From positions 1 to 51,559 of the forward strand of contig JAUSDP010000016.1 of the NCBI GenBank assembly GCA_030650605.1: DNA of 51,559 nt. The letters run 5' to 3'. The DNA is from a bacterium. GTDB taxonomy: Bacteria; Patescibacteriota; Minisyncoccia; Phycocordibacterales; Zambryskibacteraceae. The translations under genes were made by a program, and so were the position numbers. This document shows, piece by piece, positions 5,607 to 21,856 of this stretch. The notes beneath the pieces were generated by a model that did no database searches, was not told where the DNA came from, and saw only the letters and a list, made by a program, of their open reading frames with translations. The first letter of the stretch is position 1. Each line of letters opens with the position of its first letter.

Positions 5607-6434
5607 ATGAGAATTATTTCAAGTGGTAAGGTTCTTAACTCGCGAGAATTTTATCAGAAAAAGACGAGAAAAAGGCGTATCCAGTTGATTTTTCTACTTA
5701 TTGGGTTTTTATCTATTCTTTCAGCGTTTATCTACTTTTCGCGACAGGAGCAATTTTTGATTACTGAAGTTGAGGTGCAGGGGGAAAATATTGTTGATAA
5801 AGAAGAGATGGCACAAACCGCACGTCATCTCTTATCTGGTTATTTTTTTTGGGTAATTCCTCGAGCCAATACTTTTCTCTATCCTCGTCGCTCTATTAAA
5901 AATTCTCTCATCAATGAATTTCCCAGACTCAAATCAGTTGATTTAAATTTGAGCGAACGACAAAAACTCATCATTACGATTGAGGAGCGTGTGCCTTTTG
6001 CCTTATACTGCGCGGATACTCTCAATAGTAAGTGCTTCTTCCTGGATGAAGAAGGGTTTATTTTTGCTTCCGCGCCCTCTTTTTCTAGTGGAGTTTACTT
6101 TGTTTATATTACCAAAGACACGATTGAAAATCCTATAGGTAAACGCCTTGTTACTATTGAAGAGTTCAATGTATTATCAAAATTCATAAAAAATCTTCTA
6201 GCGCTAAATATTCAATCCTTGGAACTGGAGGTTGATGATGACGAATATAGTCTTTATCTGTTGAATAACGGAAAAATTATATGGCGCAAAAATAGTGACC
6301 TCACTCTTATCTATTCAAACCTAGAAGCTTTTCTCTCTGATAAAACTATACAGGCCCAAAGTGATTTCTTTGATAGAATACTATACTTGGACTTACGGAT
6401 CGAAAATAAGGTATTCTACAAATTTAAAGAGTAG
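5607..6434 (+). CDS. ftsQ: Cell division protein FtsQ/DivIB-like
   Basis: A 275-residue bitopic protein. A basic N-terminus (KKTRKRR) precedes one membrane helix (about residues 28-46, IFLLIGFLSILSAFIYF), then a POTRA-type domain (EVEVQGENIVDKEEMAQTA) and a FtsQ beta domain (IEERVPFALY, FLDEEGFIFA). FtsQ-type proteins link early and late divisome parts. A TATACT box at 5595-5600 lies only 6 nt before ATG and there is no Shine-Dalgarno, so the message is probably leaderless. It heads a tight run with dus and dnaX. Confidence 0.85.
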   Translation: MRIISSGKVLNSREFYQKKTRKRRIQLIFLLIGFLSILSAFIYFSRQEQFLITEVEVQGENIVDKEEMAQTARHLLSGYFFWVIPRANTFLYPRRSIKNSLINEFPRLKSVDLNLSERQKLIITIEERVPFALYCADTLNSKCFFLDEEGFIFASAPSFSSGVYFVYITKDTIENPIGKRLVTIEEFNVLSKFIKNLLALNIQSLELEVDDDEYSLYLLNNGKIIWRKNSDLTLIYSNLEAFLSDKTIQAQSDFFDRILYLDLRIENKVFYKFKE

Positions 6435-8459: not shown

Positions 8460-8708
8460 ATGTGGTACGTGTACATTATAAAAAGCCAGCTTAAAAAATG
8501 GTACTACGTAGGTAGTACTAATAGATTAGATATACGTCTAAAGGAGCACAATAATGGTCAGGTTACTTCGACAAAACTGTACTTACCATTCAATATGGTT
8601 TATAAGAAGAAATTTGATAGTGAAATGCTGGCTAGAGAATATGAAAGATTAATTAAAGACAAAAGAATTTTAAAAGAGTCTTTGATTAAGGATATAGAAA
8701 GTTCGTAA
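8460..8708 (+). CDS. GIY-YIG nuclease domain protein
   Basis: An 82-residue protein that is essentially one GIY-YIG domain: WYVYIIKS for GIY, YYVGSTN for YIG, then RLKEHNNG. It resembles the UPF0213/YhbQ-like group of short nuclease-like proteins. The catalytic-type Tyr, Arg and downstream Glu are present (EYERLIKD). It sits 17 nt after dnaX and 7 nt before tRNA-Gln. A second, divergent copy lies at 9023 on the other side of the tRNA pair. The role is unknown; DNA repair or a relict mobile-element nuclease are both possible. Confidence 0.88.
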   Translation: MWYVYIIKSQLKKWYYVGSTNRLDIRLKEHNNGQVTSTKLYLPFNMVYKKKFDSEMLAREYERLIKDKRILKESLIKDIESS

Positions 8709-8715
8709 GCAGAGC

Positions 8716-8786
8716 TGCGGGATCGTCTAATGGTAGGACATCGCCCTTTGGAGGCGAGTATCTTGGTTCGAATCCAAGTCCCGCAG
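8716..8786 (+). tRNA. tRNA-Gln (TTG)
   Basis: A complete cloverleaf: acceptor TGCGGGA (8716-8722) pairs with TCCCGCA (8779-8785), followed by discriminator G. The D arm carries the GTCTAATGGTAGGAC sequence. The anticodon arm is TCGCC-CTTTGGA-GGCGA, which puts TTG at 34-36. The T arm is CTTGG-TTCGAAT-CCAAG. The 3' CCA is not encoded. It is on the same strand as dnaX and may be co-transcribed. Confidence 0.93.
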
Positions 8787-8807
8787 CTCTGCTTAAGAGT
8801 CGGATCG

Positions 8808-8825
8808 CCTGCCTGCGCAGGCAGG
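8808..8825. repeat. 18-bp palindromic element, copy 1 (in tRNA D arm)
   Basis: CCTGCCTGCGCAGGCAGG, a perfect palindrome. The intact tRNA 90 bp upstream gives the empty site (GGATCG/TCTAATGG). The insertion is exactly 18 bp with no target-site duplication. Identical copies lie at 13216-13233 and 21071-21088. Confidence 0.93.
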
Positions 8826-8850
8826 TCTAATGGTAGGACATCGCCCTTTG

Positions 8851-8868
8851 CCTGCCCGCGCAGGCGGG
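8851..8868. repeat. 18-bp palindromic element, variant copy (in anticodon loop)
   Basis: CCTGCCCGCGCAGGCGGG, a diverged version of the same element that still forms a hairpin on the + strand with one G-U pair and one mismatch. The empty site is CTTTG/GAGG in the intact tRNA. Again exactly 18 bp are added. Confidence 0.88.
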
Positions 8869-9022
8869 GAGGCGAGTATCTTGGTTCGAATCCAAGTCCC
8901 GCAGCTCTTCGTCGCTTCGCTTCTCAGAGCCTTTGGCCGTAGGCCGACGGCCCTTCTTCTGCATGCGACGAAGATACCGAGCGAGTCCTGACAGAGGAAG
9001 GACGACGAGGTAGTATTAGTTA

Positions 9023-9271
9023 ATGTCCCACTTTGTCTATATTCTCGAATGCGCCGATAAGTCTCTCTATGTCGGTTGTACCAACAATCTTGAGAGAAGA
9101 CTGAAACAACACAATAATTCAAAGTGGGGTGCGCATTATACAAAGATAAGGCGTCCAGTTGTGCTTAGGTATAAAGAGGAGTTTAATACATTAAGAGAAG
9201 CAAGAAAGAGAGAATTAGAAATCAAGGGTTGGCGTAGAGAAAAGAAATTTGCTTTATTCAACTTGAGATAG
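9023..9271 (+). CDS. GIY-YIG nuclease domain protein (second copy)
   Basis: An 82-residue single GIY-YIG domain: FVYILECAD, LYVGCTNNLERRLKQHN, with a downstream Glu in REARKRELEIKGW. The family is the same as the 8460 protein and the length is identical, but the sequence is clearly different, so it is not a recent duplicate. It follows the tRNA-Gln pseudogene by about 120 bp. Its cellular role is unknown. Confidence 0.88.
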   Translation: MSHFVYILECADKSLYVGCTNNLERRLKQHNNSKWGAHYTKIRRPVVLRYKEEFNTLREARKRELEIKGWRREKKFALFNLR

Positions 9272-13039: not shown

Positions 13040-14305
13040 GTGAGACGAGCTATTGTAACGAGTATTATTGTTGGTATAGGCTTACTTTTATTTTTTGTCT
13101 TCTACAATAGTCCAGAACCAGTTATTCCAAGTCTAGAACAGACAGGAAATCTCAAAGCAGTTCATAGTATCATCGGCACTTCTGTGGAAGGGAGAAATAT
13201 TGAAAAATACACATACCTGCCTGCGCAGGCAGGTGGAAGTGGGGGAGCACATATTGCATTTGTTGGTGGCATACATGGAGGTTATGAGTGGAATAGTGTC
13301 GTTTTAGCATATAACTTTATTGATTATCTTGATCAAAATCCTGAAGTTATTCCTAAAAATCTAACTATAACAGTTATTCCTTCTGCGAATCCTGATGGAG
13401 TATATAAGGTAATAGGTAAAGAAGGACGTTTTACCATAAAAGATGTTTCAAAAAGTGTAGCTAAGGCACTGGGTCGTTTTAATTCAAATAAAGTAGATCT
13501 TAATCGTAACTTTGATTGCAAATGGCAACCGAAAAGTATGTGGCAAGAAAAGATTGTAAGCGCAGGAACCAAGCCATTCTCAGAACCGGAATCTCTGGCT
13601 ATCAAAAGATTTGTATTAGAAAATAATCTCGATGCAATCATCTTCTGGCATAGTCAGTCGGGTGCTGTATATGCCTCTCAGTGTGAATCAGGGATTCTTC
13701 CTGAGACACTTAAGATTATGAATGTATATTCAATAGCATCAGGGTATCGTGCAGTTCCATCTTTTGATTCTTACCAAACAACTGGTGATGTTGAAGGGTG
13801 GCTCGCAAAAATTGGTGTCCCAGCGATTACCGTAGAACTTAAGACTCACGAGACTATTGAATGGGAAGAGAATTTGGCTGGTGCCAAAGCACTTTTTGAA
13901 TACTATGGAAATAAAACAATTAATGAAAATATTGGTAATGAACTTGATAAATCTGATCTTATTCGCCTCGATAATCCGCGTCCCAATCAAGTTATCGGTA
14001 GCCCACTTATTATCACTGGGGAGGCTCGGGGCTACTGGTTCTTCGAAGCCAGTTTCCCTGTCTTTCTAACTAACTGGGATGGATTAATAATTGCTCAAGG
14101 TATTGCTACAGCACAGAGCGACCCCGCCACATCGGGCGAGGTAAACTGGATGACAACAGAGTTTGTACCGTTTAAAGCGACGTTAAAGTTTGTTGTAGAT
14201 AAGAACGCTTATAGTAATAGAGGATTCCTGATTCTTCGCAAAGATAATCCGTCCGGTCTTCCAGAGAACGATAATGCACTTGAGATCCCGGTAAAGATAT
14301 TTTGA
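13040..14305 (+). CDS. M14 zinc carboxypeptidase with C-terminal Gmad2-like domain
   Basis: A 421-residue anchored protein. Residues 4-21 are a membrane segment. Residues about 40-295 are an M14 peptidase with His79 and Glu83 (GGIHGGYEWN), Arg156 in VDLNRNFDC, His204 (FWHSQSG) and catalytic Glu266 (ITVELKTHE). Note that Glu is at His+4, not the usual +3. Residues about 310-421 resemble a Gmad2 immunoglobulin-like domain (LDNPRPNQVIGSPLIITGEA). It probably trims wall or extracellular peptides outside the membrane. The start is GTG, 3 nt after the previous stop. An 18-bp palindrome has been inserted in frame as residues 59-65, just before the first core strand. Confidence 0.88.
   Translation: MRRAIVTSIIVGIGLLLFFVFYNSPEPVIPSLEQTGNLKAVHSIIGTSVEGRNIEKYTYLPAQAGGSGGAHIAFVGGIHGGYEWNSVVLAYNFIDYLDQNPEVIPKNLTITVIPSANPDGVYKVIGKEGRFTIKDVSKSVAKALGRFNSNKVDLNRNFDCKWQPKSMWQEKIVSAGTKPFSEPESLAIKRFVLENNLDAIIFWHSQSGAVYASQCESGILPETLKIMNVYSIASGYRAVPSFDSYQTTGDVEGWLAKIGVPAITVELKTHETIEWEENLAGAKALFEYYGNKTINENIGNELDKSDLIRLDNPRPNQVIGSPLIITGEARGYWFFEASFPVFLTNWDGLIIAQGIATAQSDPATSGEVNWMTTEFVPFKATLKFVVDKNAYSNRGFLILRKDNPSGLPENDNALEIPVKIF
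13216..13233. repeat. 18-bp palindromic element inside the M14 gene
   Basis: CCTGCCTGCGCAGGCAGG, identical to 8808-8825. It is read in frame as (L)PAQAG(G), a different codon phase from the MurA copy. The tandem paralogue lacks the matching residues (YHYGSGDTELLF against YTYLPAQAGGSGGAHIAF). Confidence 0.93.
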
Positions 14306-20515: not shown

Positions 20516-21856
20516 ATGAAAGACTGGCAAGACGAGAGAGACGACTTTGAGATAGATGGGGGACAAAAACTTTCCGGTTCTATTACCACTAACGCGTCCA
20601 AGAATGGTGCCACGCATCTCTTCGCTGCTGCTCTGGTTAACAAAGGTAAGACTACTTTCAAAAATATTCCGCGTATTGAAGAAGTGAATCGATTTATAGA
20701 AGTTCTCAAGAGCCTGGGTGTCAAAATAGTTTGGACTGACAAACACACTCTTACTATAAAACCACCAAAGACGTTTTCAGTATCAAATATAAACAGCCGC
20801 GCTACCGGCAAAATTCGTTCTGCTTTAATGCTTATCGGGCCTCTTTCTAACAGGCTAAAATCTTTTAAACTACCACATATCGGCGGTTGTCAGATGGGAG
20901 AAAGAACTATCACTGCTCATCGTTATGCTCTAGAAGATTTGGGTTTAAAAATATCAACAAAAGAAAATTATTATCATATTACTCGAAGTGGGCAAGTAAA
21001 GCATGAGGTAGTGATGTATGAGGCATCCGATACCGCTACTACCAATGCCATTTTACGTGCGGCTGTTTTGCCTGCCTGCGCAGGCAGGCCCCAGTGCACT
21101 ATTATTGATTTTGCTCAACAAAATTATATGGTGCTTGAAGTATGTTATTTTTTAAAGAAACTCGGTATTAAAATTGAAGGTATCGGTACAAAAACTCTCA
21201 CGATAGAAGGCAATCCAAATACAAACAGAGATATTGAATATGCAAACAGCGAAGATCCTATAGAAGCCATGCTCTTCATAACCGCGGCGATCATGACTCA
21301 CTCAAAGTTAAAAATCTTGAGAGCTCCGATTGATTTTCTAAAGGTGGAACTACTGAAACTGGAGAAAATGGGACTGCATTATGATATGTCCAAAACCTAT
21401 CTTGCACTTAATGGTCACACAAAGCTTGTCAATTTGACGATTAGACCTTCTAAACTTAAAGCGCTTCACGACAAAATTCATGCCCAACCATATCCCGGTA
21501 TTAATACCGATAATCTGCCATTTTTCGTCCCGATAGCTACGCAAGCCAAAGGTAGAACACTTATACACGACTGGATGTGGGAAGATCGAGCTATCTTCTT
21601 TACTGAACTTAATCGACTCGGGGCGAGTGTGCGTTTGGCCGACCCTCATCGTGTATTTGTCGATGGGCCATCTAAACTCAAGGGTGCACAGATTGTTTGT
21701 CCCCCAGCGCTTCGTCCTGCTGTAATGCTTATGGTGGCCATGCTCGGAGCGGAAGGAAAGTCGATTTTACGTAATGTTTATGCTATCAAACGCGGTTATG
21801 AAAATATCCTGGGACGTTTAAATAAAATCGGCGCTAAAATTAAAATACTTAATTGA
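20516..21856 (+). CDS. murA: UDP-GlcNAc 1-carboxyvinyltransferase (MurA)
   Basis: A 446-residue enzyme of the EPSP-synthase fold that transfers enolpyruvate to UDP-GlcNAc, the first committed step of peptidoglycan synthesis. Lys29-Asn30 (SKNGATH), the catalytic Cys125 (HIGGCQMGERTITAH), the Asp in NTDNLPFFVPIATQAKG and the Arg in AIKRGYENILGRL are all present. Cys at the active site predicts sensitivity of the fosfomycin-binding type. Residues 186-191 (PACAGR) are an in-frame insertion of the 18-bp palindrome in a surface turn. Removing it restores the usual loop length. Confidence 0.92.
   Translation: MKDWQDERDDFEIDGGQKLSGSITTNASKNGATHLFAAALVNKGKTTFKNIPRIEEVNRFIEVLKSLGVKIVWTDKHTLTIKPPKTFSVSNINSRATGKIRSALMLIGPLSNRLKSFKLPHIGGCQMGERTITAHRYALEDLGLKISTKENYYHITRSGQVKHEVVMYEASDTATTNAILRAAVLPACAGRPQCTIIDFAQQNYMVLEVCYFLKKLGIKIEGIGTKTLTIEGNPNTNRDIEYANSEDPIEAMLFITAAIMTHSKLKILRAPIDFLKVELLKLEKMGLHYDMSKTYLALNGHTKLVNLTIRPSKLKALHDKIHAQPYPGINTDNLPFFVPIATQAKGRTLIHDWMWEDRAIFFTELNRLGASVRLADPHRVFVDGPSKLKGAQIVCPPALRPAVMLMVAMLGAEGKSILRNVYAIKRGYENILGRLNKIGAKIKILN
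21071..21088. repeat. 18-bp palindromic element inside murA
   Basis: CCTGCCTGCGCAGGCAGG, identical to the copies at 8808 and 13216. It is read exactly on codon boundaries as PACAGR. Confidence 0.95.

Follow-up and report, generated by a model that had tools for sequence, protein, structure and literature searches.

The tRNA-Gln pair of the window

The window, that is, the whole stretch of 51,559 nucleotides analysed here, belongs to the patescibacterial genome bin G000. It carries a tandem pair of tRNA-Gln genes with a small nuclease ORF on either side, and two protein genes hosting further copies of the same short palindrome (Table 1). The intact tRNA represents the empty site, while its broken neighbor holds two 18-bp inserts whose sequences differ by two mismatches. 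Within the window, palindrome matches with at most three mismatches number four, against 0.01 expected from shuffled sequences.

Table 1. Palindrome copies and associated features of the window
Feature	Position	Strand	Support
Small GIY-YIG nuclease ORF (82 aa), directly upstream of intact tRNA-Gln	8460..8708	+	PF01541, E 4.6e-15
tRNA-Gln (anticodon TTG), intact; empty site	8716..8787	+	ARAGORN; Rfam RF00005, 63.1 bits
Broken tandem tRNA-Gln copy holding both inserts; 5' acceptor strand unmatched	8802..8903	+	
18-bp palindrome CCTGCCTGCGCAGGCAGG in D-stem (nt 10^11) of broken tRNA-Gln	8808..8825	+	
18-bp variant CCTGCCCGCGCAGGCGGG in anticodon loop (nt 36^37) of broken tRNA-Gln	8851..8868	+	
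Second small GIY-YIG nuclease ORF (82 aa), downstream of broken tRNA-Gln	9023..9271	+	PF01541, E 6.8e-19
Peptidase_M14 gene, host of third copy	13040..14305	+	
Third palindrome copy, in frame (YLPAQAG)	13216..13233	+	
EPSP_synthase-family gene, host of fourth copy	20516..21856	+	
Fourth palindrome copy, in frame (PACAGR)	21071..21088	+	

As the sequence stands, ARAGORN finds no tRNA in positions 8790-8960; once both 18-mers are deleted by script, a tRNA-Gln(TTG) is detected there. With the second insert taken out, the broken copy is identical to positions 10-72 of the intact tRNA (63/63 in BLAST), and the placement of this insert is ambiguous by one G. The 5' acceptor strand does not match (AGTCGGATCG against TGCGGGATCG in the intact gene), and the broken tRNA-Gln is therefore a dead copy. 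Its near identity outside the 5' end points to a duplication that was probably recent. The two elements inside it are able to pair with one another.

The first-pass annotation, made before any comparison, had claimed that what distinguishes the two tRNA copies is a pair of insertions, each exactly 18 bp long and without target duplication, one of them in the anticodon loop. The first of these claims holds only from about nt 5 onward, because the 5' acceptor strand is also unmatched. No flanking duplication is visible at either insert site, as had been claimed. The position in the anticodon loop was likewise confirmed, although the sequence there is a variant and not the identical 18-mer. The same variant occurs in a relative, G007 (locus L015). 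Near the end of a tRNA-synthetase-like ORF of L015, CCCTTCGACTCCGCTCAGGG lies in frame (FDSAQG) and resembles another dispersed palindrome family.

Six exact copies of the palindrome are present in G000. This bin measures 1.14 Mb, compared with 0.4-0.6 Mb in relatives of the same genus, and may be composite.

Filled and empty sites in related genomes

Orthologous genes with and without the palindrome were then compared. The M14 peptidase of the window has an empty ortholog in G001 (L397), and the two genes are co-linear after 18 bp, or six residues, are taken out. In class II fructose-bisphosphate aldolase, G000 alone contains a copy, a decayed one (CATGTCTGCGCAGGCAGG), and 29 orthologs without it are exactly 18 bp shorter at the same codon. 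The prepilin peptidase genes of G000 and G007 carry the identical 18-mer, with flanks that share only 65-77% identity; those of G001, G016, G003 and G011 have the empty site. G000 and G007 do not group together in a two-gene tree, whose support is low. As for TopA, one LPAQAG of the Nomurabacteria locus L116 is absent from L088, a second one is common to both, and L086 bears a further 21-bp form (LPGRQAG) at a place empty in the other two. A 36-bp case (L012) consists of one element nested at the center of another.

The phosphoglycerate kinase (PGK) gene is less simple. Its site holds a 20-mer and shows a net gain of 18 nt, so that the 20-mer form may lose target bases on insertion. The codon occupied by this 20-mer is the same in two non-sister species, G253 and G433, which stand apart in the PGK gene tree with 89% support; the 20-mer is absent from G310 (of the same genus as G253), G395, G438, G184 and G263. 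Two insertions at this site, or several clean losses of the insert, would explain the pattern alike; one site cannot decide, and we favor neither reading.

The palindrome is dispersed throughout the class. The pattern CCTGCCTG-N(1-6)-CAGGCAGG is present in 168 of 384 genomes, with up to 28 copies in one of them, while the reversed pattern, used as a control, gave no match in any of the 384. Two forms dominate, the 18-mer and CCTGCCTGCCGGCAGGCAGG. Sister forms are 20 and 21 bp long; copies within coding sequence measure 18, 20 or 21 bp with a single exception of 22, and all five 21-bp forms are coding. Among named genomes, the exact 18-mer is found mainly in Patescibacteria (tiny bacteria whose genomes are reduced); two Bacteroidota bins have at least several loci, and the other occurrences are scattered. 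The data are assemblies, mostly of metagenomes, and sampling by exact match misses decayed copies. Chance matches to the 18-mer also exist, as in L070, which we take to be a CLRRQVGAV motif native to a dCMP-deaminase-like protein.

Taken with this dispersion and the matchless control, the empty orthologous sites in aldolase, prepilin peptidase, M14 peptidase and TopA uphold the initial proposal that the palindrome is a precisely inserting unit rather than a chance repeat. The flanks are unrelated, which excludes segmental duplication, an outcome that would have refuted the proposal. The expectation that insertion always adds 18 bp is met for the 18-mer only, given the sister forms and the PGK site. 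The insertion reading is thus right, and more general than first stated.

Reading frame, target preference and tRNA hotspots

Frame and target preference were determined on 108 distinct exact 18-mers in Patescibacteria, frames being counted from copies in clear ORFs. The frames LPAQAG, PACAGR and CLRRQ are represented in the ratio 57:9:8 (p 1.6e-14). All reading frames of the 18-mer are open, and the bias therefore reflects selection on the peptide and not on stops. In genes, the palindrome survives almost only in the LPAQAG frame and hence stays translated; intron-like removal at the RNA level, considered as a candidate, is ruled out by this bias for coding copies.

At the insertion junction, a purine-pyrimidine step (R^Y) is found in 58% of copies against 23% of background (p 3e-15) and in 49% of those outside the favored frame, GC and AT being the commonest steps. 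Target site duplication was not seen: the exact 18-mers rarely have duplications of 2 bp or longer at their junctions, and the filled tRNA and aldolase sites are exactly 18 bp longer than the empty ones.

With the element taken out, 13 of 276 copies turn out to lie inside a tRNA, compared with 5 of 5520 positions drawn at random, an excess of about 50-fold. These inserts lie mostly at D-arm positions 10/11 or 21/22 of tRNA-Gln, Lys, Thr, Asn and Leu, and the two inserts in the single dead tRNA-Gln of the window fit this wider pattern. The palindrome thus goes in as one block of exactly 18 bp, duplicates no target bases, favors R^Y and hits tRNA D-arms far above chance.

Many of the copies inserted in tRNAs share one layout: a 5' tRNA fragment with the element in its D-arm, next to it a small GIY-YIG ORF, and behind that an intact tRNA. 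The succession of fragment, nuclease ORF and intact tRNA recurs in different lineages (L039, L271, L197, L044, L097). Those GIY-YIG ORFs of the cassettes that were tested match PF01541; the ORF of L044 looks HNH-like by eye and matched no Pfam family. A GIY-YIG ORF is found no more than 300 bp away from 10 of 126 noncoding copies, compared with 1.2% of random positions, whereas coding copies show no enrichment (2/148). Within-family pairs of high- and zero-copy genomes show only a weak difference in GIY-YIG counts (p 0.058). We regard the nucleases beside the tRNA cassettes merely as a lead and not as a mechanism.

The 5' tRNA fragments of these cassettes cover about nt 1-25, and the arrangement, seen also at positions 8460-9271 of the window, resembles a tRNA-targeting nuclease cassette. 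Another tRNA-Gln(TTG), in G001 (L397, positions 1455-1700), carries GC-rich hairpin inserts in its D-, anticodon and T-loops, and its D-loop insert holds an entire tRNA-Gln(CTG) between palindrome halves.

Possible origins and proposed spread of the palindrome

Several other origins can be envisaged. The palindrome might be a REP-type element moved as single-stranded DNA by a RAYT/Y1 (IS200/IS605-like) transposase. A PF01797 profile screen of 80 genomes, followed by inspection of hairpins around 30 Y1 genes, found Y1_Tnp in 33 of the 43 high-copy genomes and in 19 of the 37 that have no copy (Fisher p 0.02), and a single-stranded route would likewise leave no target duplication. However, no PF01797 match exists in the high-copy genomes G404 (28 copies), G210 (22), G298 and G398 (15 each), the Y1 genes examined carry different flanking hairpins (e.g. 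TGTTGAACATTGAATGTTCAACA), and the CCTGCC palindrome occurs near Y1 genes at background rate (3/30 loci, none closely flanking). The palindrome also has no GTAG or CGTC tag. This route is already weakened and we consider it unlikely, other transposase families being outside the screen. No more probable is a by-product of homing endonucleases, in which a GIY-YIG (or HNH) enzyme would cut tRNA D-arms and other sites, an 18-bp duplex being captured at the break or selected for destroying the cut site. The enrichment of noncoding copies near GIY-YIG ORFs, the repeated cassette layout with GIY-YIG or putative HNH ORFs and the recurrent D-arm positions speak for it; the lack of such proximity for in-frame coding copies and the weak difference in GIY-YIG counts speak against it, and the dead tRNA fragments may be just neutral ground beside cassettes.

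A local origin, in which template switching at replication turns imperfect inverted repeats into perfect ones, could draw on two copies (L059, L289) placed exactly in the center of longer perfect palindromes, and on the inverted-repeat character of the PGK site. It is largely refuted by the aldolase and prepilin peptidase empty sites, since empty orthologs hold no such sequence; the same 18-mer moreover stands at unrelated sites, and flank complementarity barely exceeds that of shuffled pairs. We hold this origin to be very improbable. Finally, an artefact of assembly or library oligonucleotides, or copying within larger duplications, must be borne in mind with data consisting solely of assemblies. 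It is all but eliminated by the occurrence of the palindrome in independent studies and many species, by the TopA insertion common to different genomes, by a frame bias that requires selection and by the unrelated flanks.

Among known systems, the closest are Rickettsia palindromic elements (RPEs), which are dispersed, lie in frame inside unrelated protein genes whose product is apparently kept, and have no known mover (PMC10969869; PMC3733652). The palindrome described here is likewise dispersed and in frame in unrelated protein genes. RPEs, however, are about 100-150 bp long, with a reported CGTC tag at one end (PMC3733652), whereas our palindrome is near-perfect, measures 18-21 bp, starts with CCTG, ends with CAGG and lacks that tag. 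It occurs in Patescibacteria, prefers R^Y targets and has tRNA D-arms as its hotspots. REP elements of the GTAG and CGTC families are short hairpins, some within genes, thought to be moved in trans by RAYT or TIRYT transposases (PMC3733652). In contrast to them, the palindrome has neither tag, lies at or under the lower end of the 20-40 bp REP range, is frequent in coding sequence and has no adjoining Y1 transposase. With MITEs it shares the state of a non-coding inverted-repeat unit and, by inference, movement in trans, but it is far shorter and makes no target site duplication; no parent transposon was found in the PF01797 screen, which covered this single transposase family. Unlike IS200/IS605 elements, its insertions have no fixed tetra- or pentanucleotide beside them, only a weak symmetric R^Y preference. 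Most probably, then, the palindrome is a variant of this broad kind and not a member of a known family: it resembles RPEs in its working, yet fails their length and tag and the REP and MITE criteria tested. No relevant earlier description of its sequence or its peptides was found in the open literature searched.

We therefore favor, as the likely explanation, an ultra-short insertion unit of RPE-like character (18 bp; sister forms of 20 and 21 bp) spreading through Patescibacteria genomes. Having no coding capacity, it would depend for its movement on an enzyme supplied in trans, which would recognise the palindrome itself or its hairpin and make a blunt insertion into a target of two-fold symmetry; both the enzyme and the copying mechanism are unidentified. 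Coding copies would persist as an innocuous in-frame insertion of six residues in a loop, which the protein tolerates, and tRNA copies only in redundant or broken tRNA genes. Mobility is inferred from sequence comparison alone, no insertion event having been observed. Against this explanation stand the unidentified mover and the PGK 20-mer, with which clean addition is not simple for every form. A bolder reading, no more than possible, sees here a class of mobile DNA that is new, self-contained and ultra-short. Its members would be perfect palindromes of 18-21 bp, and undescribed machinery common to Patescibacteria and some Bacteroidota, perhaps driven by tRNA-associated GIY-YIG nucleases, would insert them bluntly and more than once at the same positions (tRNA D-arms, one PGK site).

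As an insertion unit, the palindrome would rank among the shortest pieces of DNA for which filled and empty sites demonstrate insertion as a block. Core genes in which it is seen include those of central metabolism and information processing (GAPDH, aldolase, PGK, TopA, arginyl-tRNA synthetase) and alters many predicted proteins in Patescibacteria, one of the largest bacterial groups. Its fixed size, known empty sites and frame filter make it a clean system for studying the spread of a non-coding hairpin, and also allow one to ask how often natural proteins tolerate insertion of a fixed peptide.

Some minor observations concern individual loci. In L059 and L289, insertion extended an existing hairpin; these are striking single cases, and general insertion at the tips of existing hairpins was rejected, flank complementarity being only marginally above that of shuffled pairs. 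Ten loci (L207, L209, L213, L217, L219-L221, L226, L227, L230) contain patescibacterial Y1 genes between their own paired, lineage-specific hairpins, in a TIRYT-like arrangement. Palindrome-flanked phage genes (L153/L154, L168/L195) were considered as an autonomous parent and dismissed as ordinary phage ORFs in repeat-rich spacers, without transposase. In the viral contig L153 (positions 5704-6377), the phage gene lies between inverted repeats of about 30 bp, each of which contains the 18-mer.
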